Source: Ignavibacteria bacterium (GTDB taxonomy: Bacteria; Bacteroidota; Ignavibacteria; Ch128b). From it: DNA of 64,000 nt. The translations under genes were made by a program, and so were the position numbers. Every line of letters begins with the position of its first letter. The stretch's first letter is position 1. The notes below the pieces were generated by a model. That model was not told the origin of the DNA. It saw only the letters and a program-made list of their open reading frames with translations, and searched no databases. Positions 3,097 through 63,723 of the stretch are shown here, one piece after another. Location: assembly GCA_013177855.1 (NCBI GenBank), contig JABLYA010000001.1, forward strand, positions 1,715,573 through 1,779,572. The letters are read 5' to 3'.

Positions 3097-5835
3097 ATGA
3101 GAAAATCCACTTTATTCCTACTGACAATCTTTTTCGGTGTTTTATTTGCAACAACTTACAATACAATTATCATTGATGGTAATAATGATTTTCAATCTGA
3201 CGAAACTTTCTCAACTTCATCTTCAGGTTATACAGCTTATGTAACCTGGGATGCAAACAACATTTATCTCGGTTATTCAGGTAATGATATTGGAAGTGGT
3301 CAGTCAAGTACAAAATGGATTATCTTTTATTTCGATACTGATGCTCATTTAGATCCGACATATGGTGCAGGAACATTGAACGCAATTGGATTTAATACAC
3401 AAAATTGGACTTTGCCATTCAGAGCTGATTATATGATTCAAATACAAACTACAGGTGGATTTACAGCATTAAAGAGATATAATGGAACTGCATGGGTAGA
3501 TGTAACTCCACACAATATGCAAATCTTTGATAACGATGCAGCGAATTTTATTGAAATAAAAATTCCAAAGGCAAGCCTGAATAATCCAGAAAAAATTTAT
3601 GTTTTAGGATATTTTGTCAATGAGCAAAGCGGCGGCGAGTGGACCTACGCAAGTTTCCCTGATAACTCATTAAGAGGTGGTGATGGTTATAAAAATCCAG
3701 GTTACTTTGATCACTGGTATGGATTCGAATTAACGAATAATGTTTCTCCCAACGCTCCAGTACATTATGATAATAAAGAATTTTTGAAATGGGATATACG
3801 ACTCGGTGCATCTATTACATCGGCCGGATTAACAGATAATAACAACTACGCTGGTCTTGCATTAAACGCAACTGACGGCTATGATCCAAATGTTGATTTA
3901 GCAAAACCTCCAGCACCACCATCAAATTATGTTTATCTTGCTTTCCCTCATTCAGATTGGATTAACCAGCTTGGTCCTAATTATTACAGAGATATAAAAG
4001 CAAATCGACAACTTGATACTTCAACTGTGAGCTGGGACTTTTTTATTGCAACTGATAAAACAAATTCAACAGTCACAATTTCCGTAAGTGAGTTTAATGA
4101 TGTACCATCAAACTATGATATATACATAAACGATTTGACAGCAAATGTTTTACATAATGTTAGAACAAGTGGAAACTATAGTTACAATTCAGGTACTGGA
4201 GGAACGCGCAACTTCAAGCTGGTTGTTGGAAAGTATGTTCCGAATTTGCAAACAATTACAACATTAAATTTTGGAAATGTTAAGCTTGAATATGATTCAA
4301 TCAAATCCTTTACTGTTCAAAACACAGGTCTTGAAGCATTAACAATTACCAATCTTCAAATCACCGGTAATTATCAGCTTGTTGGTGCAACAACTCCTAT
4401 TAATATTCCTGCTGGTGGAAGCACAAATCTTACAGTAAAATTTACGCCTCTCTCTCTTGGAACAAATTCTGGAACATTAACAATCACAAGCAACGATCCT
4501 GACACTCCAAATTATTTAGTTCAGCTGACAGGTGAAGGAATAAAACCTACAATAACCAAAAAATTTGCACCAGGCTGGAATCTTGTTGGACTTCCACTTT
4601 ATCCAGCCAGTCCATTAAAAGACTCTGTTTTTGGATCTTTTTCAACAAGCTATGTTCTTTTTAAATATTCAAATGGAAGTTACATACCTTCTGACTCAGT
4701 TTTAATTGGAAGAGGTTACTGGTTAGGATTAGAAGATACAATGTATTTTTCAATGACAGGTATGCCTGTACTTTCAGATACTTTAATTCCTTTAACTACT
4801 GGTTGGAATTTGATTTCACTCTTGTATCTGAAAGATCTAAGAAAATCCAATCTTCAAATAAAAAACAACACAACAATTCTTTCGCTTGATGATGCAGTTG
4901 CCCAGGGCTGGGTTCAGGGTAATTTGTTTGCATTTTCAAAGGCTACTAATTCATATGTTTCAATCGATACTATGGATCAATTCTTGGGTTATTGGTTCGC
5001 TGCACTTGTTAGTGGATTGGAATTGAAATTTGTCAAATCACAAACTATTGGATCATTGCCAAAGATTAAACAAGATTATATTGACGAAAGAAATTGGAAG
5101 TTTAATCTTGTTGCAAGTAATTCGCTCTCGAGAGATGATTTATTTTATTTTGGACTAAATGAAAATGCAACAACCGGGTTTGATAATTCATTCGATAATG
5201 CAAAACCGCCAATTAATCCAAATGATAGTGCAGTAGAGATTTATTTCAGAAGAAATAATTGGAATCCTTTATTCACCAAATATCTTTCAGATGTTCGAAG
5301 ATTTTCGGCAAATCAAGTTTATTTATGGGATTTTGAATTCCACTCAAAACGAGCTGAACAATCAACGATTAGCTGGAAAAATCTAAGCGAAAATTTCCCA
5401 GCTGAATTTTTAAATCAATATTACTTCTTGCTTATTGATTCAACAAACAACCGAACTGTTAATATGAAAAACACTACCAGTTACACATTCAATCATAATG
5501 GAGATGTTACAAAATTTGCCGTAAAATTTGGAAAGCTGACTGATGTTGAGAATAATCCAATAAAATTTGATTATAAACTTTCTCAGAATTATCCTAATCC
5601 ATTTAATCCAACGACAAAAGTTACTTTTTCTGTAAAAGAGAAATCTTTTGTCAATATCTCACTCTTCAATATGCTGGGTAAAGAAGTCGCAAATCTTGTT
5701 TTCGAAGAAAAAAATCCGGGTGAATATGAGATTGAGATTGATGCAAATAAACTTGGTTTAGTAAGTGGAGTTTATTTTTACAAAATGGTATCAAAAGATT
5801 TTGTTTCTATCAAAAAAATGATTTATCTGAAATAA
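3097..5835 (+). CDS. T9SS-secreted protein with CBM9-like and choice-of-anchor D (ASPM/SPD-2/Hydin-type) domains
   Basis: Secreted, probably surface-attached protein of unknown function. It has a short signal peptide (about residues 1-19). Residues 20-200 form a CBM9/DOMON-like beta-sandwich, recognisable from IIIDGNND, YVTWDANNIYLGYSGND and the FYFDTD strand, similar to the module in the preceding amylase. About residues 385-485 are an ASPM/SPD-2/Hydin-like Ig fold (LNFGNV, FTVQNTGLEALTI, SGTLTITSNDPD), the choice-of-anchor D type common in these bacteria. The C-terminus is a T9SS sorting domain with SQNYPNPFNPTTKV and ends in KKMIYLK. The middle has two WN-rich repeats (GWNLVGLPLYP, GWNLISLLYLK). 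The start follows a strong SD (GGAGGTG). No catalytic motif was recognised. Being 13 bases after the amylase, it may help bind or display the same substrate; this is inference. Confidence 0.82.
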   Translation: MRKSTLFLLTIFFGVLFATTYNTIIIDGNNDFQSDETFSTSSSGYTAYVTWDANNIYLGYSGNDIGSGQSSTKWIIFYFDTDAHLDPTYGAGTLNAIGFNTQNWTLPFRADYMIQIQTTGGFTALKRYNGTAWVDVTPHNMQIFDNDAANFIEIKIPKASLNNPEKIYVLGYFVNEQSGGEWTYASFPDNSLRGGDGYKNPGYFDHWYGFELTNNVSPNAPVHYDNKEFLKWDIRLGASITSAGLTDNNNYAGLALNATDGYDPNVDLAKPPAPPSNYVYLAFPHSDWINQLGPNYYRDIKANRQLDTSTVSWDFFIATDKTNSTVTISVSEFNDVPSNYDIYINDLTANVLHNVRTSGNYSYNSGTGGTRNFKLVVGKYVPNLQTITTLNFGNVKLEYDSIKSFTVQNTGLEALTITNLQITGNYQLVGATTPINIPAGGSTNLTVKFTPLSLGTNSGTLTITSNDPDTPNYLVQLTGEGIKPTITKKFAPGWNLVGLPLYPASPLKDSVFGSFSTSYVLFKYSNGSYIPSDSVLIGRGYWLGLEDTMYFSMTGMPVLSDTLIPLTTGWNLISLLYLKDLRKSNLQIKNNTTILSLDDAVAQGWVQGNLFAFSKATNSYVSIDTMDQFLGYWFAALVSGLELKFVKSQTIGSLPKIKQDYIDERNWKFNLVASNSLSRDDLFYFGLNENATTGFDNSFDNAKPPINPNDSAVEIYFRRNNWNPLFTKYLSDVRRFSANQVYLWDFEFHSKRAEQSTISWKNLSENFPAEFLNQYYFLLIDSTNNRTVNMKNTTSYTFNHNGDVTKFAVKFGKLTDVENNPIKFDYKLSQNYPNPFNPTTKVTFSVKEKSFVNISLFNMLGKEVANLVFEEKNPGEYEIEIDANKLGLVSGVYFYKMVSKDFVSIKKMIYLK

Positions 5836-5844
5836 GATCCTTTC

Positions 5845-5887
5845 AAGGCTGTGAAGCTAATATTTAGCGTTCACAGCCTTTCCCCTT
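5845..5887 (+). terminator. Intrinsic terminator after the two-gene T9SS cargo unit
   Basis: An 11-bp inverted repeat, AAGGCTGTGAA (5845-5855) and TTCACAGCCTT (5870-5880), has an inner stem GCTAA/TTAGC and one bulged G. It is followed by TCCCCTT, a weak T tract. It lies 10 bases after the stop codon of the upstream gene. Confidence 0.75.
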
Positions 5888-5962
5888 AAATTTGCCTTAA
5901 TATCCGATTTGATAATGTGAAGTAATTTTTCCAATTTTATTTAAAAATGATACAATTAATAA

Positions 5963-6526: not shown

Positions 6527-7324
6527 ATGCCAGAAACTATTAAGTCATTATTAAAATCACTCTCTCCTAAAACTTATAATTCTGTAAAGGGAATTATCTC
6601 AGATTATTCTTCTGGTAGTCAAGAATTAAATGAAAAAATTTTACTGTTGCTTTTAAAGTCCCGCAGTGTTAAGACGCTTAAGAATTTAATTTTGATTTTC
6701 AGAGAAGTTTTCACGCAATTTGCTGCGATTCTTTATACACTTGGCAAAGTTGAGCAAAAATTAGAAAAGAGCAATCTTGAAGATGTGAAAAGTTATATTC
6801 GAGCTCTACTTAATCAACAAGAGTTAAGAATTCAGAAGCTTTACGGTAAATTTAGAAGGAAAATTTCTAAAGGCATTCGAATACTCACTTTTTCAAACAG
6901 CTATACTTGCTTTAAGCTATTTGAAAAAATTCAATCAGAAGGATTTGATCCTGAATTTTATATTCCTGTTTCAAATCCAGGTGGTGAGGGGAAATTGCTT
7001 TTTATAAAACTAAAACAATTAGGAGCTAAATGCATTTTAATTCAGGATAAAGAAATTGAAAGAGTGATTTCTGAAGTGGATATTGTTATAACTGGTGCAG
7101 ATAAAATTATTCAGAACAAATATTTTATTAATAAGTTAGGCACCAAGCGACTTGCATTACTCGCAAAGAAGCACTCCAAGCCATTTTATCTTATAGCGTT
7201 AAAAGAAAAAGTTCTGAAAGAGGGGATTTTTACTGAGAGTGAAAAAACACCATTAAGAAAGAAAGACAAAATATTATTTGAAAGAGTGGAAATAGCTTTT
7301 GTTACGGAAATTTTTATTGCTTAG
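6527..7324 (+). CDS. eIF2B alpha/beta/delta-like (MtnA / ribose-1,5-bisphosphate isomerase superfamily) protein
   Basis: The C-terminal half resembles the eIF2B/MtnA superfamily: ISKGIRILTFSNS (first strand and loop), NPGGEGKLLFIKLKQLG (in place of the usual ERPxxxG loop), DIVITGADKII with the conserved GAD, and INKLGTKRLALLAKKHSKPF, matching the NKIGT...LA...PFY signature. The N-terminal 110 residues are predominantly helical, as in eIF2B subunits. At 266 residues it is shorter than MtnA (about 340). The conserved Arg-Pro of the sugar-phosphate loop appears replaced by Asn-Pro, so isomerase activity is doubtful. TTG at 6524 immediately precedes ATG 6527; I prefer the ATG. It is probably co-transcribed with the ECF sigma gene. 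The function is unknown: a sugar-phosphate-binding regulator or a divergent isomerase are both possible. Confidence 0.65.
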   Translation: MPETIKSLLKSLSPKTYNSVKGIISDYSSGSQELNEKILLLLLKSRSVKTLKNLILIFREVFTQFAAILYTLGKVEQKLEKSNLEDVKSYIRALLNQQELRIQKLYGKFRRKISKGIRILTFSNSYTCFKLFEKIQSEGFDPEFYIPVSNPGGEGKLLFIKLKQLGAKCILIQDKEIERVISEVDIVITGADKIIQNKYFINKLGTKRLALLAKKHSKPFYLIALKEKVLKEGIFTESEKTPLRKKDKILFERVEIAFVTEIFIA

Positions 7325-7333
7325 AGTTGGTTT

Positions 7334-7373
7334 AAAAAAAGAACTGCCAAGGTGGAGGGCAAACCTTGGCAGT
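7334..7373 (-). terminator. Rho-independent terminator reading on the minus strand
   Basis: A perfect 10-bp stem with an 11-base loop is followed, in the minus direction only, by TC plus seven Ts. On the plus strand the bases after the stem (GTAGAGTTACG) contain no T run, so it is a poor terminator for the upstream eIF2B-like gene. This orientation is the main argument for a minus-strand transcript in this gap. Confidence 0.7.
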
Positions 7374-7456
7374 GTAGAGTTACGTTTTAGTGGAGGGCAA
7401 TAAGGGTAACACAGATAAGGGTAGTAACTTCAACTTTTAGGAGAACTCAAATGATA
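7334..7456 (-). ncRNA. Candidate small RNA with two anti-Shine-Dalgarno GCCCTCCAC motifs
   Basis: The gap between 7324 and the suf genes holds a strong hairpin whose T tract lies on the minus strand: ACTGCCAAGG (7373-7364), an 11-base loop, CCTTGGCAGT (7352-7343), then TC and seven Ts (7340-7334). A minus-strand transcript ending here would carry the 9-base motif GCCCTCCAC twice, once running into the terminator loop (complement of 7352-7360) and once upstream (complement of 7390-7398). It would also carry TACCCTTAT twice (complements of 7400-7408 and 7415-7423). CCCTCC is complementary to Shine-Dalgarno sequences, as in C-rich-loop riboregulators. The 5' end is placed only by a sigma-54-like TGGCAC-N5-TTGA element at 7481-7467. 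I see no minus-strand ORF here. The existence, ends and function of this RNA are inferred. Confidence 0.38.
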
Positions 7457-7466
7457 TTTTTAAAGG

Positions 7467-7481
7467 TCAATATCTGTGCCA
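7467..7481 (-). promoter_or_regulatory. Possible sigma-54-type -24/-12 element for the candidate small RNA
   Basis: On the minus strand TGGCAC (7481-7476) is followed after 5 bases by TTGA (7470-7467). The GG-to-G spacing fits the GG-N10-GC rule, but the -12 C is replaced by A. Only the -24 half is convincing. An NtrC-type activator is encoded at 58345-59736, so sigma-54 is probably present in this organism. Confidence 0.25.
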
Positions 7482-7700
7482 GCTAAAAAATTGAGATTTT
7501 TTGAGAAAATATTGAGAGTTTAGATTTATAATTCTCAAATATGATAATGGGGTTTTCAAAATTGTGAGAAAATTTTAGAAATCATCATTTCAGCCAAATA
7601 TTATTTCAATCTTAAATAATTGATAATTGAAGTTCAAAAAGCTAATTAATTTGATTTAGGTGACAAGATTTTGAGAACTTTTTTTGGTAGTATTTGGTTT

Positions 7701-7778: not shown

Positions 7779-9221
7779 ATGCAAAACGAAACAGTTGATC
7801 TGAATCAACTAGCCCTGCAAGAATATAAATATGGCTTTTACACCGATATAGAAATGGAGACCTTTCCGAAAGGTCTTAATGAGGATATCATTAGAATGCT
7901 TTCGGAGAAAAAAGGTGAACCTGAATGGATGACAGAGTGGAGATTAAAAGCATATCGTGCATGGCTTAAAATGGAAGAACCACATTGGGCAAATGTTTAT
8001 TATCCGCCAATTAATTATCAGGACATCAGATATTATGCTGCACCAAAGAAACGTCCGTTGAAAAGTCTTGATGAAGCAGATCCAGAATTACTAAAGACTT
8101 TTGAAAAATTAGGAATTCCACTCGAAGAACAGAAAAGACTTGCCGGGGTTGCTGTTGACGCTGTCTTTGATAGTGTCTCCGTTGCAACTACTTATAAAGA
8201 AAAATTAGCTGAACTTGGAATAATTTTCTGCTCAATGTCTGAAGCAATTCGTGAATATCCAGATCTTGTGAAAAAATATCTTGGTTCTGTTGTTCCACCT
8301 ACAGATAACTTTTTTGCTGCTTTGAACTCGGCTGTGTTTTCTGATGGCTCATTTGTTTACATTCCAAAGGGTGTCAGATGCCCGATGGAACTTTCAACAT
8401 ACTTTAGAATCAATGCTAATGAAACTGGTCAATTTGAAAGAACTTTGATTATAGCTGATGAAGGAAGCTATGTTAGTTATCTTGAAGGTTGTACAGCACC
8501 AATGCGAGATGAAAATCAATTGCATGCTGCTGTCGTTGAATTAATCGCTCTTGATAATGCTGAGATTAAGTATTCAACAGTTCAGAATTGGTATCCAGGT
8601 GATAAAGAAGGAAGAGGCGGAATTTATAACTTTGTTACAAAACGAGGAATTGCAAAAGGCAAGCATTCAAAAATTTCCTGGACGCAGGTCGAAACAGGTT
8701 CCGCTATTACATGGAAGTATCCAAGTGTAATTCTTCAGGGTGACTATTCAGTAGGCGAATTTTATTCAGTTGCAATGACGAATCACCGTCAGCAAGCTGA
8801 TACTGGTACAAAGATGATCCATATTGGAAAACATACAAGAAGTACAATTGTTTCTAAAGGAATCTCAGCAGGTGAATCAAACAATTCCTATCGTGGACTT
8901 GTAAAGATTTTGCCAAACGCTGATCACGCACGCAATTTCTCTCAATGCGATTCTCTTTTAATTGGAGATAAATGCGGCGCTCATACATTCCCATATTTGG
9001 AAGTAAATAATCCAACTGCTCGTGTCGAGCATGAAGCAACAACTTCAAAAATTGGTGAAGATCAAATTTTCTATTTAAATCAAAGAGGCATTTCCAAAGA
9101 AGATGCAATTAGTTTAATTGTCAATGGCTACTGCAAAGAAGTCATTTTAGAATTACCGATGGAATTCGCAGTCGAGGCTTCTAAGTTGTTAAGCATTAGT
9201 CTCGAAGGCAGTGTAGGTTAA
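7779..9221 (+). CDS. sufB: Fe-S cluster assembly scaffold protein SufB
   Basis: Core subunit of the SufBCD scaffold, on which [4Fe-4S] or [2Fe-2S] clusters are built in the cytosol from sulfur delivered by SufS/SufU. The family signature is clear: [28 protein letters not shown], the beta-helix core, and near the C-terminus [21 protein letters not shown], containing the Cys equivalent to the essential cluster/sulfur-accepting Cys of other SufB proteins, plus the conserved [16 protein letters not shown] chose ATG 7779 because CCGGAGG lies 6 bases upstream; the frame is open back to TTG 7734, but that start lacks an SD. The length is then 480 residues, close to the normal size. sufC follows after 29 bases. 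Confidence 0.97.
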
Positions 9222-55249: not shown

Positions 55250-55339
55250 TTTAAAAGAAAAGAATCGTTTAATGACTACATTGATAAAGTTGGAATTTTA
55301 TGATAGTTCGGTTTAGAAATGATGGCTTTTTTAAGAGTG

Positions 55340-55414
55340 TCGGGGCGGCCGGATTCGAACCGGCGACCTCCTGGTCCCGAACCAGGCGCTCTAACCGGGC
55401 TGAGCCACGCCCCG
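55340..55414 (-). tRNA. tRNA-Pro (anticodon CGG)
   Basis: On the minus strand a 75-base cloverleaf: acceptor CGGGGCG (5') pairs with CGCCCCG (3') plus discriminator A. The D arm has GCTC/GAGC; the anticodon stem CCTGG/CCAGG closes the loop TTCGGGA, with anticodon CGG; the T arm is GCCGG-TTCGAAT-CCGGC. C1 as first base and this anticodon identify proline. CCA is not encoded (CAC follows the discriminator). The stems are very G+C-rich against an AT-rich background, as usual for a tRNA in an AT-rich, possibly warm-growing organism. Confidence 0.96.
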
Positions 55415-55527
55415 TTTTTCATCAAATAAATGAACTGATTTTTATTGTAAATCTCATTACAAATATAAAATTATTCTTTTGAAAAATTATTTGAATGATA
55501 TAAAATTAAAAAGGATAAAATCAGATT

Positions 55528-56844
55528 TTAATTTTCAATTTCGGAAGGCTTAAGAGTGAAATAAACTCTTGTCCATTTTCCTTCTTCGCTTGCAATCCAG
55601 AAATGTTCACCGTGTTTATCAATAATTGCTTTAACAATAAGAAGACCAAGTCCAAGTCCTTTTTCACCTTTTGTACCTCGGGTAGTAAATTTTTTAGTAG
55701 AAACAAGCAAGTTCATCAAGATATCTCTGTCAATTCCAATTCCAGAATCCACTACAAGGACAACCAGTTTATTAATTTTTTCATGATAGTGCGTGTGTAT
55801 TTCAATAGTGCCGCCGGGATGTGAAAATTTTATTGCATTATCCAAAATATTTTTTAGTACTTCAATTATCATAAATTCATCGCCATAAACATAAGTTTCA
55901 GGCTTAGAGTTAACTAATATTTTAACATTTTTTGCTTCCGCAATTTTTGACATAGTTTTTACAACAAAATTTATTGTCGAAGATACATCAAAATCAGTCG
56001 GATTTAATGCAAATGAAGGTGACTCATATTTTGTCCATTCAATAATTCTGTTTAATGCATTTAATTGTTGTTTGGAAAGTTCGAAAATATTTTCAGCAAA
56101 TTGTTTTACTTCTTTTTTGTTTTTATACTGACCATCTTTTAGAAGCTGACAATAACCAAAAACACTATTCAAGGGTGTTCTCAAATCGTGAGAGATGATA
56201 GAAACTAATTTGTCCCGTTGAAATTTTATTTTTTCAAGTTCAGCTTTAACTTTATCCGTTTCGTTTTGTGGTTGTTCTCTTGTTATAAATTTTGCAATTA
56301 CAGCCTTACCATTTGTTGGAACCTCTTTAAGATGAGACTGTGAACTTTGAGACTTTAAGATAGTTTCTGTTTCACTAAAACTCTTTTTTTGCTCTCTGGG
56401 TGCTTCACTAATTTTATTAGTTTGATGAGTGATCGGTTTAATTTCTGATGCTTTTTTCTCAGGCTCTTTGTATTCAACTGAAGCTTTTGATTGATAATTT
56501 GTGTTCTTATAAGAAGGAGAATAAAAATAAGAATTGACTTTTTGTGGAATTTTTCTTTCGTATTTTTTTGTAAGTAGAAATACAAACAATGTAAAGAATA
56601 GAATGATAGTTCCGATAAGTGAAATCAATTCAAAAGGTGAAAGTAGATAGAACCCATCCAGAAGTGGTTCAGCATTAATGAAGTCATATAATTGGAAGAT
56701 GGAAATTCCAATTAGGGCAACAATAATGAAATAAAATCCACTCTTATATTCAGTTTCTTTTGAAAGAATTATTGCAACTATTGCATTAGAAAGATGAATT
56801 AAAATCGTGAAAATTATTACTAACGAATATAAATTCCAGCTCAC
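55528..56844 (-). CDS. Membrane sensor histidine kinase
   Basis: Two-component sensor. The N-terminal hydrophobic part has about four transmembrane helices (residues about 5-95), with no obvious large periplasmic sensor. A low-complexity Lys/Ser/Glu linker (about 100-200) follows, then HisKA with phospho-acceptor H in SHDLRTPLNSVFGY (about 219 from the GTG start) and HATPase with EVLKNILDNAIKFSHPGG, VVDSGIGIDRD and KGEKGLGLGLLIVKAIID, so it is catalytically complete. I prefer GTG 56844, which has GGAG 6 bases upstream; the frame also opens at TTG 56859. It is transcribed away from a sigma-28 promoter at 56921. The likely partners are the regulators encoded downstream on the plus strand. Confidence 0.9.
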   Translation of the reverse strand: MSWNLYSLVIIFTILIHLSNAIVAIILSKETEYKSGFYFIIVALIGISIFQLYDFINAEPLLDGFYLLSPFELISLIGTIILFFTLFVFLLTKKYERKIPQKVNSYFYSPSYKNTNYQSKASVEYKEPEKKASEIKPITHQTNKISEAPREQKKSFSETETILKSQSSQSHLKEVPTNGKAVIAKFITREQPQNETDKVKAELEKIKFQRDKLVSIISHDLRTPLNSVFGYCQLLKDGQYKNKKEVKQFAENIFELSKQQLNALNRIIEWTKYESPSFALNPTDFDVSSTINFVVKTMSKIAEAKNVKILVNSKPETYVYGDEFMIIEVLKNILDNAIKFSHPGGTIEIHTHYHEKINKLVVLVVDSGIGIDRDILMNLLVSTKKFTTRGTKGEKGLGLGLLIVKAIIDKHGEHFWIASEEGKWTRVYFTLKPSEIEN

Positions 56845-56920
56845 ATATATCTCCGACAAAATAGATTCATTTCAGTAACATTATCGAATTATGTCCTGTA
56901 ATTTTTCAAAAAAACTATTT

Positions 56921-56947
56921 TAAAGTGAAGTGACCCATTACCGATAA
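56921..56947 (+). promoter_or_regulatory. Sigma-28 (FliA)-type promoter
   Basis: TAAAGTGA (56921-56928), exactly 11 bases, then ACCGATAA (56940-56947). The sigma-28 consensus is TAAAGTTT-N11-GCCGATAA, so 13 of 16 positions match and the spacing is exact. It points at the small FlgM-like gene 45 bases downstream. The -10 region is also one arm of the 15-base palindrome ACCGATA-A-TATCGGT (56940-56954), a possible operator. A FliA-type sigma is encoded at 60865. Confidence 0.72.
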
Positions 56948-56991
56948 TATCGGTGTGATTAAATTACAGAAAAAGTGAAAGAATGTAAGAA

Positions 56992-57183
56992 TTGAAGCAG
57001 AAATCTTTTGATCCTCAGTTAGAAAAATCATTTTTACCTGCAAAAAAGATCTCAAAAGATAAAAACACAATTAAAGAAATTGTTTTGTCGAGAATTGAGA
57101 CAGGATTTTACCACACGGAAGCAATTCAATTAACCACCGTGGAGAAAATAATATCCGATTTGTTCAAAATTCCCTCTAACTAA
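56992..57183 (+). CDS. FlgM-like anti-sigma-28 factor (candidate)
   Basis: A 63-residue, soluble protein with start TTG 56992; the preceding in-frame codon but one is a stop and there is no internal Met, so the start is forced, though its SD is weak. The C-terminal half resembles the sigma-binding helices of FlgM: IKEIVLSRIETGFYHTEA, then a second helix VEKIISDLFK; the pattern (R)I-x2-G-x-Y is the family hallmark. The N-terminal half is polar and likely disordered, as in FlgM. It has its own sigma-28 promoter and its own terminator. This gives negative feedback on FliA if the identification is right. It is the only small ORF in the unit; a chance ORF is unlikely given the flanking signals. 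Confidence 0.62.
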   Translation: MKQKSFDPQLEKSFLPAKKISKDKNTIKEIVLSRIETGFYHTEAIQLTTVEKIISDLFKIPSN

Positions 57184-57203
57184 TTAAATTTTATTTAAAT
57201 CCC

Positions 57204-57240
57204 ACTTCGATAATTAGCGTTTTTTTATCGAAGTTTTTTA
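57204..57240 (+). terminator. Intrinsic terminator of the FlgM-like gene
   Basis: Perfect stem ACTTCGATAA (57204-57213) / TTATCGAAGT (57225-57234), followed by TTTTTTA. It lies 20 bases after the FlgM-like stop, making that gene monocistronic. The rest of the gap to 57321 shows no clear promoter for the next gene. Confidence 0.85.
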
Positions 57241-57321: not shown

Positions 57322-58341
57322 ATGAAGAACCAAGATAATCTATTAATTAAAGTTGCGATACTGGATCAGAATATCTTTATTACTGAAACGATTGAAGAAA
57401 TATTAAAAAATTATCCTTGTGAGATTAAAAAATTTAAGAACTTATCAGAGGTTCGGGAGATTTGCGATTATTTTATTTTTTATCAGGAGAGTGTAAATGA
57501 CAAATTTATAGATGAAATTTTCCAGCTTCCTGAGTTTGTCAAAAGGAAAGTTTTAATTTGTGATAAGAATTTTTCAATCCCAACCAGATTGCTCGAAGCT
57601 TTGCAGGATATTATTAACATCAAAGAATTGGATTTCCTTCTTAAAGAACTGATGGATTATCATATCTTAATTCATTCAGATAAAACAGCTCAGGAACAGA
57701 TTGAACTTGTTCAACGATTGATGAATGATTCGTCTCATTACATAAATTCTATGCTTGTTTATTCAGAGGCTTTGAGAAATGCATTATCAAAAAGATCAGG
57801 TTTTGATCCAGAATTACTAATTAAATTTGAAAAGATTATAAAAGATTTTGAAGATGAATTTCTAAGCTTTCAAAACTTCATGTTTATTAATAAGATACCA
57901 TTGCAATTTGAGGACATTAATATATTCCTACAGAGAATCTTAAGGGAGAGGGAAAATGATTTTAAGACTAAGATCAATGAACTGAAATATTTCCCCGACT
58001 ACACACTTCCAATGGTTAAAATTAATCCAATAGCTCTAAGAAAAATTATTAATAATTTAATTGATATTGTTTTACTTTCGACAAAAGAAATTACGTCAAT
58101 TGAAATATCAACAAAAAATTACAAGAAAAATTTATCGATAAATTTTAGTATTAATTGTTCGAATTTTGACAAAACTCTGCGCTATCAAATTTATAATCCT
58201 TTTTTCCCTCGAAGCATTTTAGAATATGCGTTCGTTAACTATTTTCGTATTAAAATTGAAAGATTACTAAAAATGTCTATTCAAAATTATTTTACTGAGA
58301 ATAAACTTACTTTTGTAATCAGAATAGATTTTGGAGATTAA
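57322..58341 (+). CDS. Degenerate receiver plus pseudo-histidine-kinase protein
   Basis: Cytosolic 339-residue protein. Residues 1-100 look like a receiver-type fold with only part of the acidic site (VAILDQN). Residues about 125-190 resemble a DHp/HisKA two-helix unit: NDSSHYINSMLVYSEAL aligns with HDLRTPLNSILGYSELL so that Asn135 replaces the phospho-acceptor His. The C-terminal part (about 200-339) resembles the HATPase fold (ALRKIINNLIDIVLL) but the N-box Asn is lost and no G boxes are visible. It is therefore probably not a kinase; a dimeric scaffold, phosphatase or regulator is more likely. It is separated by 3 bases from the NtrC-type gene, so the two should be made together. Confidence 0.68.
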   Translation: MKNQDNLLIKVAILDQNIFITETIEEILKNYPCEIKKFKNLSEVREICDYFIFYQESVNDKFIDEIFQLPEFVKRKVLICDKNFSIPTRLLEALQDIINIKELDFLLKELMDYHILIHSDKTAQEQIELVQRLMNDSSHYINSMLVYSEALRNALSKRSGFDPELLIKFEKIIKDFEDEFLSFQNFMFINKIPLQFEDINIFLQRILRERENDFKTKINELKYFPDYTLPMVKINPIALRKIINNLIDIVLLSTKEITSIEISTKNYKKNLSINFSINCSNFDKTLRYQIYNPFFPRSILEYAFVNYFRIKIERLLKMSIQNYFTENKLTFVIRIDFGD

Positions 58342-58344
58342 GGT

Positions 58345-59736
58345 ATGAAACAAAAAATTTTAATAATCGATGATGATGAATTGGTGACCTCATCGCTTAA
58401 AAGAGCATTGGCTCAAAGTGGTTATGAAATTGAAATTGCATCGAGTGGAAAATTGGGCATTGAAAAAGTTGAAAAAGAAAATCCTGATATGGTTCTGCTT
58501 GATATTTTTTTGGGTGACCTGAATGGAATGGAAGTTTTAAAGAAAATTTTTCTTATAAATCCCGATTTGCCCGTTGTTATGATAACTGGATTTGCTGATG
58601 TTCAGACAGCTGTGAATGCAATAAAAATGGGGGCAATTGATTTTATACTTAAACCTATAAATGTTGATCAATTAGAGCTAATCATAAATAAAACCCTTAA
58701 GCATGTCGCTCTTCAAAAAGAGGTTCAAAGATTAAAGTTAATTACCAAAGAAGGTGATATTACAAGAGAAATGTTCGGACAAAGTCGTGCAATTAAATCA
58801 ACACTTGATGCCGTTGAAAAAATTGCAATAAGTGAAGGCACAACAATTTTAATTGAAGGAGAGAGCGGCGTTGGTAAAGAAATGATAGCTCGATACATAC
58901 ATAATATTTCAAGTCGAAGAGAAGGACCTTTTGTTGCCATTAATTGCGGTGCAATTCCAAAAGAATTAGCTGAGAGTGAATTATTTGGAAGTGAAAAGGG
59001 TGCTTACACTGGAGCAAGTGAAAAAACTCGAATTGGAAAATTTGAAATTGCTGATGGTGGAACAATTCTGCTTGATGAAATTGGAGAATTGAGCCTTGAA
59101 CTTCAAGTAAAACTTCTAAGAGTACTTCAAGAAAAGAAATTCTTCCGTCTCGGTGGAACAAAAGAAATTAGTGTTAATGTCAGAATAATAGCAGCAACAA
59201 ACAAAGATTTGCGGCAAGCTGTGAGCGAAAAAACTTTTCGGGAAGATCTATATTATAGATTGAATGTAGCAACTATCTATGTTCCTCCTTTAAGAGAAAG
59301 AAAAGAAGATATACCATTTTTAGCAATGAACTTTGTTGATGAATTTAATAAGACGTTCAATAAACAAATCAAAAAGATTTCTCCTGAAGCTTTAGACATG
59401 ATGTTGAATTATTCATGGCCCGGAAATGTTCGTGAACTTCGAAATACAATCGAAAGAGCCGTTCTTTTAATCAGTGGAGATGAACTTAAACCTGAACATT
59501 TAAATTTTATTGAAAAAGATAAATCCATACAAAAGATTATCGACGATGAATATATTTTGAAAATCCCGAAGCAAGGAATTAAGATGGATCAAGTTGTTAG
59601 AGATTTAATTATCCAAACACTTGAAATTACTGATGGTAATCAAATTCAAGCCGCTAAAATACTTGGTATTTCAAGATCAAAACTTCGTTACAGAATGGAA
59701 CAACTTAAAATTGAGGTTAAAAAACAGGTAAAATGA
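58345..59736 (+). CDS. Sigma-54-dependent response regulator (NtrC/AtoC family)
   Basis: Bacterial enhancer-binding protein that activates sigma-54 promoters when phosphorylated. It has a receiver (1-120, phospho-acceptor D53 in MVLLDIFLGD), an AAA+ domain (Walker A GESGVGKE 172-179; sigma-54-contact loop GAYTGA 219-224, with Tyr instead of the usual Phe; Walker B ILLDEIGE 241-248; the R-finger region RLNVATIYVPPLRER), and a C-terminal Fis-type helix-turn-helix (GNQIQAAKILGISRSKLRYRM). At 463 residues the length is normal. The start overlaps nothing but follows the pseudo-kinase after 3 bases; the receiver gene downstream overlaps its end by 4 bases. Confidence 0.95.
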   Translation: MKQKILIIDDDELVTSSLKRALAQSGYEIEIASSGKLGIEKVEKENPDMVLLDIFLGDLNGMEVLKKIFLINPDLPVVMITGFADVQTAVNAIKMGAIDFILKPINVDQLELIINKTLKHVALQKEVQRLKLITKEGDITREMFGQSRAIKSTLDAVEKIAISEGTTILIEGESGVGKEMIARYIHNISSRREGPFVAINCGAIPKELAESELFGSEKGAYTGASEKTRIGKFEIADGGTILLDEIGELSLELQVKLLRVLQEKKFFRLGGTKEISVNVRIIAATNKDLRQAVSEKTFREDLYYRLNVATIYVPPLRERKEDIPFLAMNFVDEFNKTFNKQIKKISPEALDMMLNYSWPGNVRELRNTIERAVLLISGDELKPEHLNFIEKDKSIQKIIDDEYILKIPKQGIKMDQVVRDLIIQTLEITDGNQIQAAKILGISRSKLRYRMEQLKIEVKKQVK

Positions 59737-60461
59737 ATTCATTAACCAAAAATCCAGATTTGACGGTTCTTATAATAGACGACAATCCTCTTGAACTTGG
59801 TTTAATTCGACTTGTACTTCAAAAAAATTTTCAAAATGTAAAATGTATTGCCTTAACACGTGTCCCTGAATGGGAGAGTTTCTTAAAATCACAAAAAATA
59901 GATGTGGTGATAATTGATTATCGTTTACCAGAAAAAAATGGTATTGAACATATTAAGGAATTAAGAAAAGTGGATAAAAATGTTTATGCATTTTTGATTA
60001 CTACTCTCGAAAAAGATGAAATTGATCAAGACATAACCAGTTCTGGTGCAACTGATTTTATTGTTAAAGATAGAAGTTACTCAAATTTAATCGCTAAATT
60101 AAATAATGTGATATTGAATGAATCAGTCAAACAATTCGAAGATGATCTTAATTCACTCAAATTTATCTTAAACAACCTTACAGATTTAGTTGTATTAAAA
60201 ATTAATTTTTCAAATGAATGTCTTGAAATCCTGGGTAATAAAGAAAAATTTCAGTCAACCACAAAGATTGAAAATTTGCAATCGGAATGGAAAAAATATT
60301 TTGAGGTAATTTTTAACCAACTGAAATCTGAAATCGAGGCCACTGAAAAATCTTATTCTTTTAAGTTTACTGAGATTGTGCTCCAGGACAAATCTTTCAA
60401 TTTTGAAGTATATCTAATTAAATCTCATTATTATTTTTATCTAACCTTGAGACTTATTTAG
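59733..60461 (+). CDS. Receiver-domain protein with uncharacterised (possibly PAS-like) C-terminal domain
   Basis: N-terminal receiver (about 10-125) with IIDDNPLE acidic pair, D62 as phospho-acceptor (VVIIDYRLPEKNG) and K in FIVKDRS. The C-terminal 115 residues (LKFILNNLTDLVVLKINFSNECLEILGNKEK, shown here by its core LTDLVVLKINF) may be a PAS-like sensor or output; no known effector motif is visible. At 242 residues it overlaps the NtrC gene by 4 bases (ATGA) and is followed by a strong terminator, so it ends the pseudokinase-NtrC-receiver operon. Confidence 0.83.
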   Translation: MNSLTKNPDLTVLIIDDNPLELGLIRLVLQKNFQNVKCIALTRVPEWESFLKSQKIDVVIIDYRLPEKNGIEHIKELRKVDKNVYAFLITTLEKDEIDQDITSSGATDFIVKDRSYSNLIAKLNNVILNESVKQFEDDLNSLKFILNNLTDLVVLKINFSNECLEILGNKEKFQSTTKIENLQSEWKKYFEVIFNQLKSEIEATEKSYSFKFTEIVLQDKSFNFEVYLIKSHYYFYLTLRLI

Positions 60462-60489: not shown

Positions 60490-60518
60490 GTGGCTAAAAT
60501 TAGCCACATTTTTATTTT
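60490..60518 (+). terminator. Strong intrinsic terminator
   Basis: GTGGCTAA (60490-60497) / TTAGCCAC (60500-60507) with a 2-base loop, then ATTTTTATTTT. It ends the operon 57322-60461 and isolates the FliA operon that starts at 60644. Confidence 0.9.
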
Positions 60519-60601: not shown

Positions 60602-60617
60602 TGGCATTTCGTTTGGA
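60602..60617 (+). promoter_or_regulatory. Weak sigma-54-like element upstream of the FliA operon
   Basis: TGGCA (60602-60606) and TTTGGA (60612-60617) give a GG-N10-GG pattern; the -12 GC is GG here, so this is a poor match. It lies 27 bases before the first gene of the operon that contains the FliA-type sigma gene, next to an NtrC-type activator gene. A sigma-70 promoter in the same AT-rich gap is equally possible. Confidence 0.22.
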
Positions 60618-60643: not shown

Positions 60644-60868
60644 ATGGAATTAAAGTCAAAAAACAATCAGGAGCTAATTAAGTCGCAGATGATTTCACTT
60701 ATTATTTCATTCATTTTTTTTAATGCAATTCTTAAAGAGGTTGATTGGTTAGTTACAAGTTCTATCATTCTCCTGATTGTTTTGATTTTAATTGTTCGAA
60801 TTTGGGGAGGTAAAAATAAAGAGGAAGCAAAATTAGTTAATTCAAATTTTTTGAGGAGGATGTCATGA
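60644..60868 (+). CDS. Small membrane protein coupled to the FliA-type sigma gene
   Basis: A 74-residue protein with two predicted transmembrane helices (about 16-33 and 36-55: LISFIFFNAIL, then SSIILLIVLILIV) and a basic C-terminal tail. I do not recognise a family. Its TGA overlaps the ATG of the sigma gene (ATGA at 60865-60868), so the two are translationally coupled and probably functionally linked, for example as a membrane tether or regulator of the sigma factor. The start is ATG 60644, with AAAGGA about 10 bases upstream. Confidence 0.68.
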   Translation: MELKSKNNQELIKSQMISLIISFIFFNAILKEVDWLVTSSIILLIVLILIVRIWGGKNKEEAKLVNSNFLRRMS

Positions 60869-61557
60869 CTACAGCTATGCTCTGGAAAGAATATAAGAAA
60901 TCTAAATCGTCTCGTTTAAAAGAAGCCTTGATAAAGCAATATCTCCGATTGGTTTATTATGTAATTCATCGAACGGATTTGAAAGGAGCTCATCTATTAA
61001 ATGATCAAGACTTCTATCAATTTGGGATTCTGGGTTTGAATGAAGCGATTGAGAGATTTGACCCTAATTATGGTGTGAAGTTCGAAACTTATGCAATTCC
61101 AAGAATTAGAGGAATGATTTTAGATGAATTAAGAAAATTGGATTTTATTCCAAGATCTTATAAAGAAAATGTGAAAAGAGAACTGGATGAAGAAAACGCA
61201 AGACGAAGAGAAAATGATCAATGCGAATTGACACTCACAGATTATTTGAGAGAATATCAGAAGCTTTCACTTTCACAGCAAGTTGGTGAAGAAGAGGATA
61301 CAATTCTGGATTTACTGCCGGGCGATCAGGAAACTCCCATAGATATTGTTGAAAAGGAAAATATTAAGGAGATCATTCTTCAAGAATTAAATAGACTCCC
61401 AGAAAGGCAAAAACTTGTCATTACGCTTTATTACTTTGAAGAGATGAATTATCAGGAGATTGCTGATTTAATGAATATCTCTGTTTCCAGAGTCTCTCAA
61501 CTGCATACCGAAGTTATCAATCGACTAAGAAAGAAATTAAAGAAAATCTTGAGGTGA
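60865..61557 (+). CDS. RNA polymerase sigma factor, FliA/WhiG (sigma-28) type
   Basis: Group III sigma-70 factor. Region 2: YQFGILGLNEAIERFDPNYG, then VKFETYAIPRIRGMILDELR, which is highly specific for the FliA/WhiG group. Region 3 is present (about 95-145). Region 4: LPERQKLVITLYYFEEMNY and the helix-turn-helix EIADLMNISVSRVSQLHTEV. At 230 residues it has the FliA length (about 240). GGAGGA lies 8 bases upstream of ATG 60865. It would recognise TAAAGTTT-N11-GCCGATAA-like promoters, and one good candidate is at 56921. No flagellar structural gene is present here, so the regulon may not be flagellar. Confidence 0.92.
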   Translation: MTTAMLWKEYKKSKSSRLKEALIKQYLRLVYYVIHRTDLKGAHLLNDQDFYQFGILGLNEAIERFDPNYGVKFETYAIPRIRGMILDELRKLDFIPRSYKENVKRELDEENARRRENDQCELTLTDYLREYQKLSLSQQVGEEEDTILDLLPGDQETPIDIVEKENIKEIILQELNRLPERQKLVITLYYFEEMNYQEIADLMNISVSRVSQLHTEVINRLRKKLKKILR

Positions 61558-61561
61558 TCAG

Positions 61562-62419
61562 ATGAATGTTAATAGCAAAATAATAGGTGAACTGGTAAAT
61601 ACAATTGAATATATACCTGTTGATAGATCATATTTGGGATTAAATGTTCTTAATGATGATCATCTCAATCCAACTAAACTGGCAGAGATAATTAATAGAG
61701 ATCAGTCGCTGGTTGCCCATATTCTTGCAATTGCAAATTCACCGATTTATGGTTTGTCGAGAAAAATTTCTACGATTGAAATGGCAATTTCTATTCTTGG
61801 TATCAAAACGATTAAAGATCTTGTCGTTGGTTTTACTGTATTCAATTCAACCTATGAAAAAGGTGATAGATACTTTTTGGCGGAGGAATTTAATCAACAT
61901 TCTTATTTGTGTGGTTATGTATCTCAACTTCTTGCCAATGATTTTAATTATCCAGTAAAGAGTGAAGCGTTTATTGCTGGTCTCTTGCATGATATTGGAA
62001 TACCAATCATTCATAGATATATGAATAAAGAATTCAAGTTAATCAGTGAGTTAAAATTTTATAGAAGAATAAGTCAGACCAAAGCTGAAAAATTAATTTT
62101 GGGTAAGACACATTGTGAAGTTGGTGGAATGGTTGCATCAAAATGGAATTTCCCTGAAAATCTAATCGATGTTATTCAAAATCACCATTCACCAAAAGAA
62201 AGTTTAATAAACAAGAAACTATCTGCAATTGTTCATATTGCCGATTTTATAGCAACAAAAGAAGCTCCACAATTCCTTTTAAGTTCTGAAGATGAACAGC
62301 TTGATGAAAGTGTTGTCGAAATATTAAATATCCCTGATTTAAGTTACCTGTATGATGTAATTAATAATGTTTCAGAACTAATAAAATCAGTAAAAATTTT
62401 AGAAGATCTAACGAGATGA
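61562..62419 (+). CDS. HDOD-domain signalling protein with intact HD pair
   Basis: HDOD domain spans almost the whole 285-residue protein. The domain starts with LNPTKLAEIINRDQSLVAHILAIANSPIYG (core: DQSLVAHILAIANS), includes the helix ISTIEMAISILGIKTIKDL, and has H143-D144 in AGLLHDIGIPI; many HDOD proteins lack this pair. The later NHHSPKE segment completes the HD-like site, so phosphohydrolase activity is possible. HDOD proteins often work with response regulators or c-di-GMP signalling. It starts 5 bases after the sigma stop and overlaps the next gene by 4 bases. Confidence 0.86.
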   Translation: MNVNSKIIGELVNTIEYIPVDRSYLGLNVLNDDHLNPTKLAEIINRDQSLVAHILAIANSPIYGLSRKISTIEMAISILGIKTIKDLVVGFTVFNSTYEKGDRYFLAEEFNQHSYLCGYVSQLLANDFNYPVKSEAFIAGLLHDIGIPIIHRYMNKEFKLISELKFYRRISQTKAEKLILGKTHCEVGGMVASKWNFPENLIDVIQNHHSPKESLINKKLSAIVHIADFIATKEAPQFLLSSEDEQLDESVVEILNIPDLSYLYDVINNVSELIKSVKILEDLTR

Positions 62420-63723
62420 ACCAAACAGCTTATAAAATAGAATTAGAGTCTCGTGAGGTTAATAATTATAATTTGAATTATAATGGAAGATCTAATTCTT
62501 ACTCCAATAACGTTAGAGACAATTATAATATCTTTGCTGAGCTTTCAAACGGTATTCTTGAGTTGATAAAATCAAATCCTAATTATGAAAGTTTTATTCA
62601 AAAATTATTATCTGTTATAAATAAAGTTATAAAAATTGAAGGGTATTCTATTTTTTCAAAAATTAAGGATGAAAAATTACTTGAAGCAAATGAAAATTTT
62701 GATCTTCAAATTCAAAAATATTTACTTGATGGAGGATTAATTCAACTTTCGTTGAATGAAAAAAGATCATTATTGATTGACTATGAAGAACAATCTGATG
62801 AGAGTAATTCAAAAAAATTACTAATAATTCCAGTCGTTTTTTCGGAAAATGCTTTTATAATCTTTTGTTTACTCGTGTTGGGCTCAAAATCTGAGATTTT
62901 TAATTCAATCTTCCCTATAATTGAAGTGCAATTTAATCTTGCAGGGGGCTATCTTTTAAATAGACTTATTGATAATGAGAATAAAAAATTGATGTCAAAA
63001 CTTTCACTAGTTGAGAAGAATATTCATGAAGAATTAAGTTATTCAACAGCTGGGAAAATTTGTCTGAAGTCTTTTCATAGTTTAAAAAATAAAACGCAGA
63101 TAATTGTTAGTTCGTTCAATCTTTTAACCAAGCTAATGAATGAGATTAATGACGAAAGGATAGAAAAAATTTTCGGAATTCTCAGCAAAGAAATACCTGA
63201 ATTTGCCCGCAGCATAAAGTTGATTTCCGATTTCTCTAAAACATTAATTAGTAATAGTAAGCCAGTTTATTTTGAATTCGATCGTTTTGTAGATGATTTA
63301 AAAAATATTTATGAGATAACTGGAAATTCAAAAAATCTGAAAATTAATTTTGCATCAAAAATATCTCGCTCGAAATTCTTTGGATATACTCAAAAATTAT
63401 TTCAGGCTTTTTTGCTGATTCTTTTTGAATTGTCATCGATTGGTATAGAGGAATTATATATTGATAATGAAGAGGATGAGAATAAATTAAGAATTAAATT
63501 AAACTTCCCGTTGATTGATGGAATTAAAGAAAATGTTAAGTGTTTGTTAGACGAAAAATCTAATGTTAAATTTGCTCGAATTAAAAATTTATTCGAACAG
63601 AATTCATGCTCAGTAATTACAAATTCTGGTAATGAATACTTTGAGATTATAATTTCAATTCCTAAGAGATCAAGTCAATTTAAGCAAAATACTTTCAGTT
63701 ATGTCAAAGATTTTGATAGTTGA
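62416..63723 (+). CDS. GAF-like plus degenerate histidine-kinase protein
   Basis: 435 residues, soluble. The first 35 residues are Asn/Tyr/Ser-rich and probably disordered. About 40-185 resembles a GAF domain (ELIKSNPNYESFIQKLL, IIPVVFSENAFIIFCLLVL). About 210-275 is a DHp-like pair of helices with a conserved candidate phospho-acceptor, H221 in SFHSLKNKTQIIVSS. The C-terminal 150 residues have the HATPase-like order, but the N-box Asn (FQAFLLILFELSSIG) and the G boxes are missing. It may accept phosphate but probably cannot bind ATP; it might be a phosphotransfer or scaffold protein for the receiver encoded next, which it overlaps by 23 bases. Confidence 0.7.
   Translation: MNQTAYKIELESREVNNYNLNYNGRSNSYSNNVRDNYNIFAELSNGILELIKSNPNYESFIQKLLSVINKVIKIEGYSIFSKIKDEKLLEANENFDLQIQKYLLDGGLIQLSLNEKRSLLIDYEEQSDESNSKKLLIIPVVFSENAFIIFCLLVLGSKSEIFNSIFPIIEVQFNLAGGYLLNRLIDNENKKLMSKLSLVEKNIHEELSYSTAGKICLKSFHSLKNKTQIIVSSFNLLTKLMNEINDERIEKIFGILSKEIPEFARSIKLISDFSKTLISNSKPVYFEFDRFVDDLKNIYEITGNSKNLKINFASKISRSKFFGYTQKLFQAFLLILFELSSIGIEELYIDNEEDENKLRIKLNFPLIDGIKENVKCLLDEKSNVKFARIKNLFEQNSCSVITNSGNEYFEIIISIPKRSSQFKQNTFSYVKDFDS

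Follow-up and report, generated by a model that had tools for sequence, protein, structure and literature searches.

How can a FlgM-FliA pair switch in a bacterium that has no flagellum? FlgM is the textbook anti-sigma factor, released through the half-built flagellum, and a family without the exporter poses the problem of how the pair would switch otherwise. The question is raised by a locus in a 64,000-nucleotide stretch of an Ignavibacteria bacterium genome (the window; positions 1,715,573 to 1,779,572 of contig JABLYA010000001.1), in which a preliminary description had proposed a self-contained promoter of the FliA (sigma-28) type, a tiny flgM-like gene and a terminator, tied by a feedback loop to the FliA-type sigma factor encoded at 60865. 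We compared this locus across six sampled genomes of its family, within the class Ignavibacteria (the source genome is G000). Our results support the small protein as a distant FlgM homolog, probably a shortened anti-sigma factor of the FlgM type, and make it quite probable that the locus belongs to a cascade leading from sigma-54 to FliA, closed by negative feedback of the FlgM type, that was rewired away from flagella, the flgM-like product and the sigma factor being leftovers of a flagellar regulon.

Results

The 63-codon open reading frame (ORF) was found at 56992-57183 on the plus strand, with a TTG start and containing SRIETGFYHTEA. Orthologous frames of 58-67 codons are present in all six family genomes, every one with a TTG start and divergent from the same sensor kinase gene; judged from these orthologs, the ORF is a real gene. 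They were collected by searching 41 whole genomes of relatives and judging weak matches by their genomic context: those of the two other species of the genus showed 33-36% identity, while those of the remaining genera were recovered from weak matches examined in context, and the proteins within the family are 24-33% identical to that of the window. Weak matches in other families, which mostly fell inside unrelated long frames, were dropped, and the window protein, used as the single query against named genomes, gave no match. As had been anticipated, the gene is readily overlooked because of its TTG start and small size. An intrinsic-terminator-like hairpin with a T run follows at 57204-57240 (plus strand); its 10-pair stem (57204-57234) begins 20 bases past the stop codon, and the fold energy is −10.4 kcal/mol (z = −5.9 against 200 shuffles). 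The hairpin and T run thus stand where they had been described, but calling the terminator perfect was a little strong given the 11-nt loop, owing to which a stricter terminator scan did not report it. No such hairpin was seen by eye in the orthologs.

The similarity of the product to FlgM could be detected only at the level of profiles. The check that had been proposed, a hidden Markov model search against PF04316, returned no match even at E = 10 for any of the six members, none of which reaches the gathering cut-off, and a sequence search of the Protein Data Bank (PDB) with the flgM-like protein gave no FlgM match; its weak matches there to SYK kinases were rejected as chance. We then aligned the six members with ten FlgM sequences of the class, gathered with the Pfam model (two lie above its cut-off, the others are weaker but carry the FlgM pattern). 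The hhalign comparison reached a probability of 97.3 and a score of 56.8 over 39 columns, while 60 column shuffles scored at most 15.4 and the reversed control 15.0. The three members of the genus alone gave a probability of 96.1 and the window protein alone 82.5, and each family member was also found singly by the class FlgM profile. This match, far above its controls, bears out the FlgM-like character claimed in the preliminary description. It covers the C-terminal end, the sigma-binding part of FlgM, and AlphaFold2 predicted two confident C-terminal helices (residues 24-37 and 43-58) after an N-terminus of low confidence. The N-terminal half is shortened: the family proteins have 58-67 amino acids (aa), compared with 81-99 in class FlgM, and the D-x-(I/L)-E-(I/L)-S stretch that precedes the helices in class FlgM has no counterpart in them, the aligned part beginning after it. 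The N-terminal part of classical FlgM is required for export, and since the export signal sits there, its reduction would fit a lineage without export.

The promoter of the flgM-like gene, TAAA-N16-CCGATAAT, lies at 56921-56948 on the plus strand, and the elements originally reported, TAAAGTGA (56921-56928) and ACCGATAA (56940-56947) separated by 11 bases, are present as written. In the AT-rich source genome of 3.66 Mb the strict pattern TAAA-N16-CCGATAA occurs at 3 sites, against 4 for the reversed control, which is not above chance; the case for the promoter therefore has to rest on comparison. In all six family genomes TAAA-N15/16-CCGATAAT lies 30-80 bp 5' of the TTG-started ORF, and this conservation at orthologous genes lifts the site above chance and upholds the claim of a FliA-type promoter, a common though not universal feature of flgM genes. 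The divergent gene (55528-56859, minus strand) encodes a membrane sensor histidine kinase with HisKA and HATPase_c domains and is syntenic in the family genomes. It has a FliA-type promoter of its own at 56880-56907 (minus strand), GAAA-N16-TCGATAAT, conserved in the six genomes as (G/T)AA(A/G)-N16-TCGATAAT with GAAA, TAAA or TAAG as −35 element.

Export by the flagellar type III apparatus, as in classical FlgM, has no visible basis here. FlhA (PF00771) was not matched in any of the six family genomes and was strongly matched in 18 of 61 genomes of the class, and the source genome, rated 100% complete, gave no match to flagellin (PF00669) or to Pfam FlgM. We therefore rejected an ordinary flagellar locus, and with it an ordinary flagellar feedback loop. 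Flagellar swimming has been reported for Melioribacter roseus, and Ignavibacterium album is called flagellated in the title of the genome paper cited there (PMC3534657), so that the loss within the class is secondary.

The sigma factor itself has been kept. The gene at 60865-61557 (plus strand) encodes a protein of 230 aa whose best NCBIfam matches are WhiG/FliA, below the curated cut-offs; it is present in the six family genomes at 62-81% identity, while other FlhA-negative members of the class have mostly general sigma factors only. In a FliA tree the family forms one group (94/97), sister to that of a flagellated family (100/99), inside a clade of the class (97/91), a placement that supports the link drawn in the preliminary description between the flgM-like gene and this sigma factor. 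The flagellar operon of the sister family reads flhB-flhA-flhF-flhG-small membrane protein-fliA-HDOD-HDOD-438 aa-...-flgF-flgG (gene names assigned by eye from translations). In the window the order, all on the plus strand, is a small membrane protein of 74 aa (60644-60868) that overlaps the start of the sigma gene and has a positional counterpart in the sister operon, fliA, an HDOD protein (61562-62419) whose homologs follow fliA in flagellated relatives, and a 435-aa protein (62416-63723) that has no Pfam match and weakly resembles kinases whose genes are found after fliA in such relatives; the order small membrane protein-fliA-HDOD is identical in both. In addition, a flagellated genome of the class, G026, carries a genuine flgM after fliC-fliC-fliS-fliD and before a regulator, a kinase and an NtrC homolog, and this last protein is a close homolog (E = 1e-151) of the NtrC-family sigma-54 activator of the window (58345-59736, plus strand; receiver, AAA and Fis helix-turn-helix domains). 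Given the sister position of the sigma factor in the FliA tree and the matching gene order, the cluster would be a regulatory remnant of a lost flagellum; set against the sister operon and the G026 locus, it resembles what two flagellar loci would leave if their structural genes were lost and their regulatory genes kept. In G011, a further FlhA-negative genome of the class, membrane protein-fliA-HDOD are kept (3740-5905 of the examined stretch) and the sigma factor is sister to that of the flagellated G030, which may be a separate instance of a sigma factor outlasting the flagellum.

The region upstream of fliA is arranged like a sigma-54 promoter that has a site for an activator, and an NtrC-family gene lies near, a pattern from which we infer sigma-54 control. 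A −24/−12-like element, TGGCAT-N5-TTGGA, is located at 60602-60617 (plus strand), and in all six genomes TGGYA-N6-TTG stands 14-28 bp before the start codon of the membrane protein-fliA operon, with TGGCTAA..TTAGCCA, a palindrome present exactly or in nearly identical form, another ~100 bp upstream. The window copy, TGGCTAAAATTAGCCA at 60491-60506, is the only one in the window, its core is kept in the six genomes, and it is a candidate binding site for the nearby NtrC-family activator. Between this activator gene and fliA lies a response regulator gene (59733-60461, plus strand). The gene between those for the flgM-like protein and the activator (57322-58341, plus strand) encodes a 339-aa protein without a significant Pfam match, degenerate-kinase-like by eye; it is present in G000, G001, G003 and G005 and absent from G002 and G004. 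On the other side of the locus, the ORF at 55300-55482, translated as AAGFEPATSWSRTRRSNRAEPRP, resembles the false frame that a tRNA gene commonly produces.

Finally, we surveyed the genomes for further FliA-type promoters by pattern searches and inspection of the retrieved stretches. NAAA-N16-YCGATAAT occurs at 90 sites in the six family genomes, compared with 48 for reversed controls. Just upstream of an ORF lie 26 of the 90 sites and 18 of the 33 that have TAAA as −35 element, against 12 of 312 (3.8%) for 149 permuted motifs on the same sequence; fractions and not totals are the fair comparison, because the loci were picked by the real motif. The promoter consensus TAAA-N15-GCCGATAA is likewise found, in sequence, before the predicted targets of the sigma factor at 60865. 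Besides flgM and the divergent kinase gene, eight genes for sensor kinases whose sensory domains are of the PAS, GAF or MCP type are among these targets. They are spread over G000, G002, G003 and G005, and several belong to one conserved tandem-kinase cluster; HATPase_c genes number 29-46 per genome, by estimate roughly 1% of the genes. A conserved run of sensor kinase genes with FliA-type promoters between genes at differing positions was seen at 2050-11008 of contig C28 in G003, at 254-262 kb of C2 in G000 and on C160 in G005. An operon that appears from its genes to be type IV pilus-like, with two pilus-type ATPases and a T2SSF protein in G000, is preceded at 14-16 bp by a site in both G000 and G001. 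At the type IV pilus-like operon of G000 (contig C1, ~857 kb) we also observed two head-to-tail genes (7240-7623 and 7848-8231 of the examined stretch) for 127-aa pilin-like proteins with identical starts and no significant Pfam match. Other sites precede polyphosphate kinase, asparaginase and a few other genes, and some of these may be chance. The flagellin genes of flagellated class members are preceded by the same kind of site.

Discussion

The scheme that we consider quite probable builds on what we count as observed, namely the conservation of the gene, its distant FlgM homology, the conservation and placement of the promoters, the absence of FlhA and flagellin, and the ancestry of the cluster. 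In it, the NtrC-family activator encoded at 58345 and sigma-54 RNA polymerase would drive the operon membrane protein-fliA-HDOD-435 aa protein; FliA would then transcribe the flgM-like gene, the divergent sensor kinase gene and PAS/GAF sensor kinase genes elsewhere, together with the pilus-like operon in two species; and the FlgM-like product would bind and restrain the sigma factor from 60865, closing a negative feedback loop. Release would not occur by flagellar secretion, because no flagellar export apparatus is left and the export-signal part of FlgM is shortened. Most likely it would take place by titration, with sigma-54-driven bursts of FliA exceeding FlgM, by turnover, or through a partner protein encoded in the cluster.

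Several results weigh against this scheme. The flgM-like protein is recognized by no Pfam or NCBIfam model, and a Foldseek search with its structure model found nothing. The absence of the flagellum was judged on two markers only, FlhA and flagellin, and five of the six family genomes are fragmented assemblies. The strict motif gives the pilus promoter in only two of the six genomes, and the −10 boxes also resemble sigma-70 sites (GATAAT).

This last resemblance is the starting point of the alternative that survives best, though it is unlikely: that these are sigma-70 promoters of the ordinary kind and that FliA is not a target of the small protein. GATAAT with TTTAAA or TTGAAA at 18 bp does score 9-10 of 12 against the sigma-70 consensus, but conservation across genomes extends to the C preceding GATAAT and to TAAA at 16 bp, both as in the FliA consensus; the sites are rare and strongly biased to gene starts (18 of 33, while permuted motifs reach 3.8%), and sites of this kind also stand before the flagellin genes of flagellated class members. 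We give still less credit to decay, in which the flgM-like gene and the sigma factor would be functionless residues of the lost flagellum. The structural markers are indeed gone and the small proteins have diverged to 24-33% identity with that of the window, but six of six genomes have kept the frame open, the TTG start and the two divergent promoters, the sigma factor is 62-81% identical across the family, and the promoters precede new, non-flagellar genes. That another small regulator, such as a protein working with the divergent kinase or an RsiG-like anti-sigma factor dependent on cyclic di-GMP (c-di-GMP), resembles FlgM by two helices only is very improbable, for while the protein is short, helical and without a Pfam match, and the best solved relatives of the sigma factor by sequence are 6pfj and 6pfv (which we take to be WhiG from complexes with RsiG), the FlgM profile match includes the sigma-binding end and far exceeds its shuffled and reversed controls, a genuine flgM occupies a matching neighbourhood in a flagellated relative, and the RsiG c-di-GMP motif, E(X)3S(X)2R(X)3Q(X)3D, was absent by eye from the six family proteins.

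Returning to the rewired cascade, we lean, with less assurance, towards a broader reading: the FlgM-FliA pair would have outlived the flagellum as a secretion-independent sigma switch, in which an export-less FlgM buffers FliA, the regulon has shifted towards sensor kinases and type IV pili, and the sigma-54 cascade has been kept from the flagellar hierarchy. The family would then be an example of a regulatory module outliving the machine that it served, and a limited literature search found no report of FlgM retained in a lineage without a flagellum. It also offers a route to missed flgM genes, which may be short, TTG-started and under the Pfam thresholds but lie beside a conserved promoter.

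Comparison with known systems

The locus shares with the flagellar FlgM-FliA circuit (PF04316; PDB 1RP3 and 1SC5) the C-terminal helices of FlgM, the FliA-type sigma factor, the position of flgM behind a FliA-type promoter and the sigma-54/NtrC tier above fliA that is seen in many flagellar cascades. It differs in that the source genome lacks FlhA and flagellin, that the predicted targets are sensor kinase and pilus genes, and that the putative anti-sigma protein has only 58-67 aa and lacks the D-x-(I/L)-E-(I/L)-S stretch in the aligned part. In Chlamydia, which also lacks a flagellum, sigma-28 likewise acts under sigma-54, but no anti-sigma-28 has been identified and the bacterium retains FlhA homologs along with a type III secretion system (PMC10597470). 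The closest precedent is RsiG-WhiG of Rubrobacter, in which a flagellar-clade sigma factor controls type IV pili with RsiG as its anti-sigma factor (PMC8325347). Both cases involve such a sigma factor in non-flagellar use with the same promoter consensus, and type IV pilus and signalling-enzyme genes among the predicted targets; whereas RsiG is a c-di-GMP-binding coiled coil, the anti-sigma factor of the Ignavibacteria family, in another phylum and with mainly sensor kinase targets, is predicted to be derived from FlgM.
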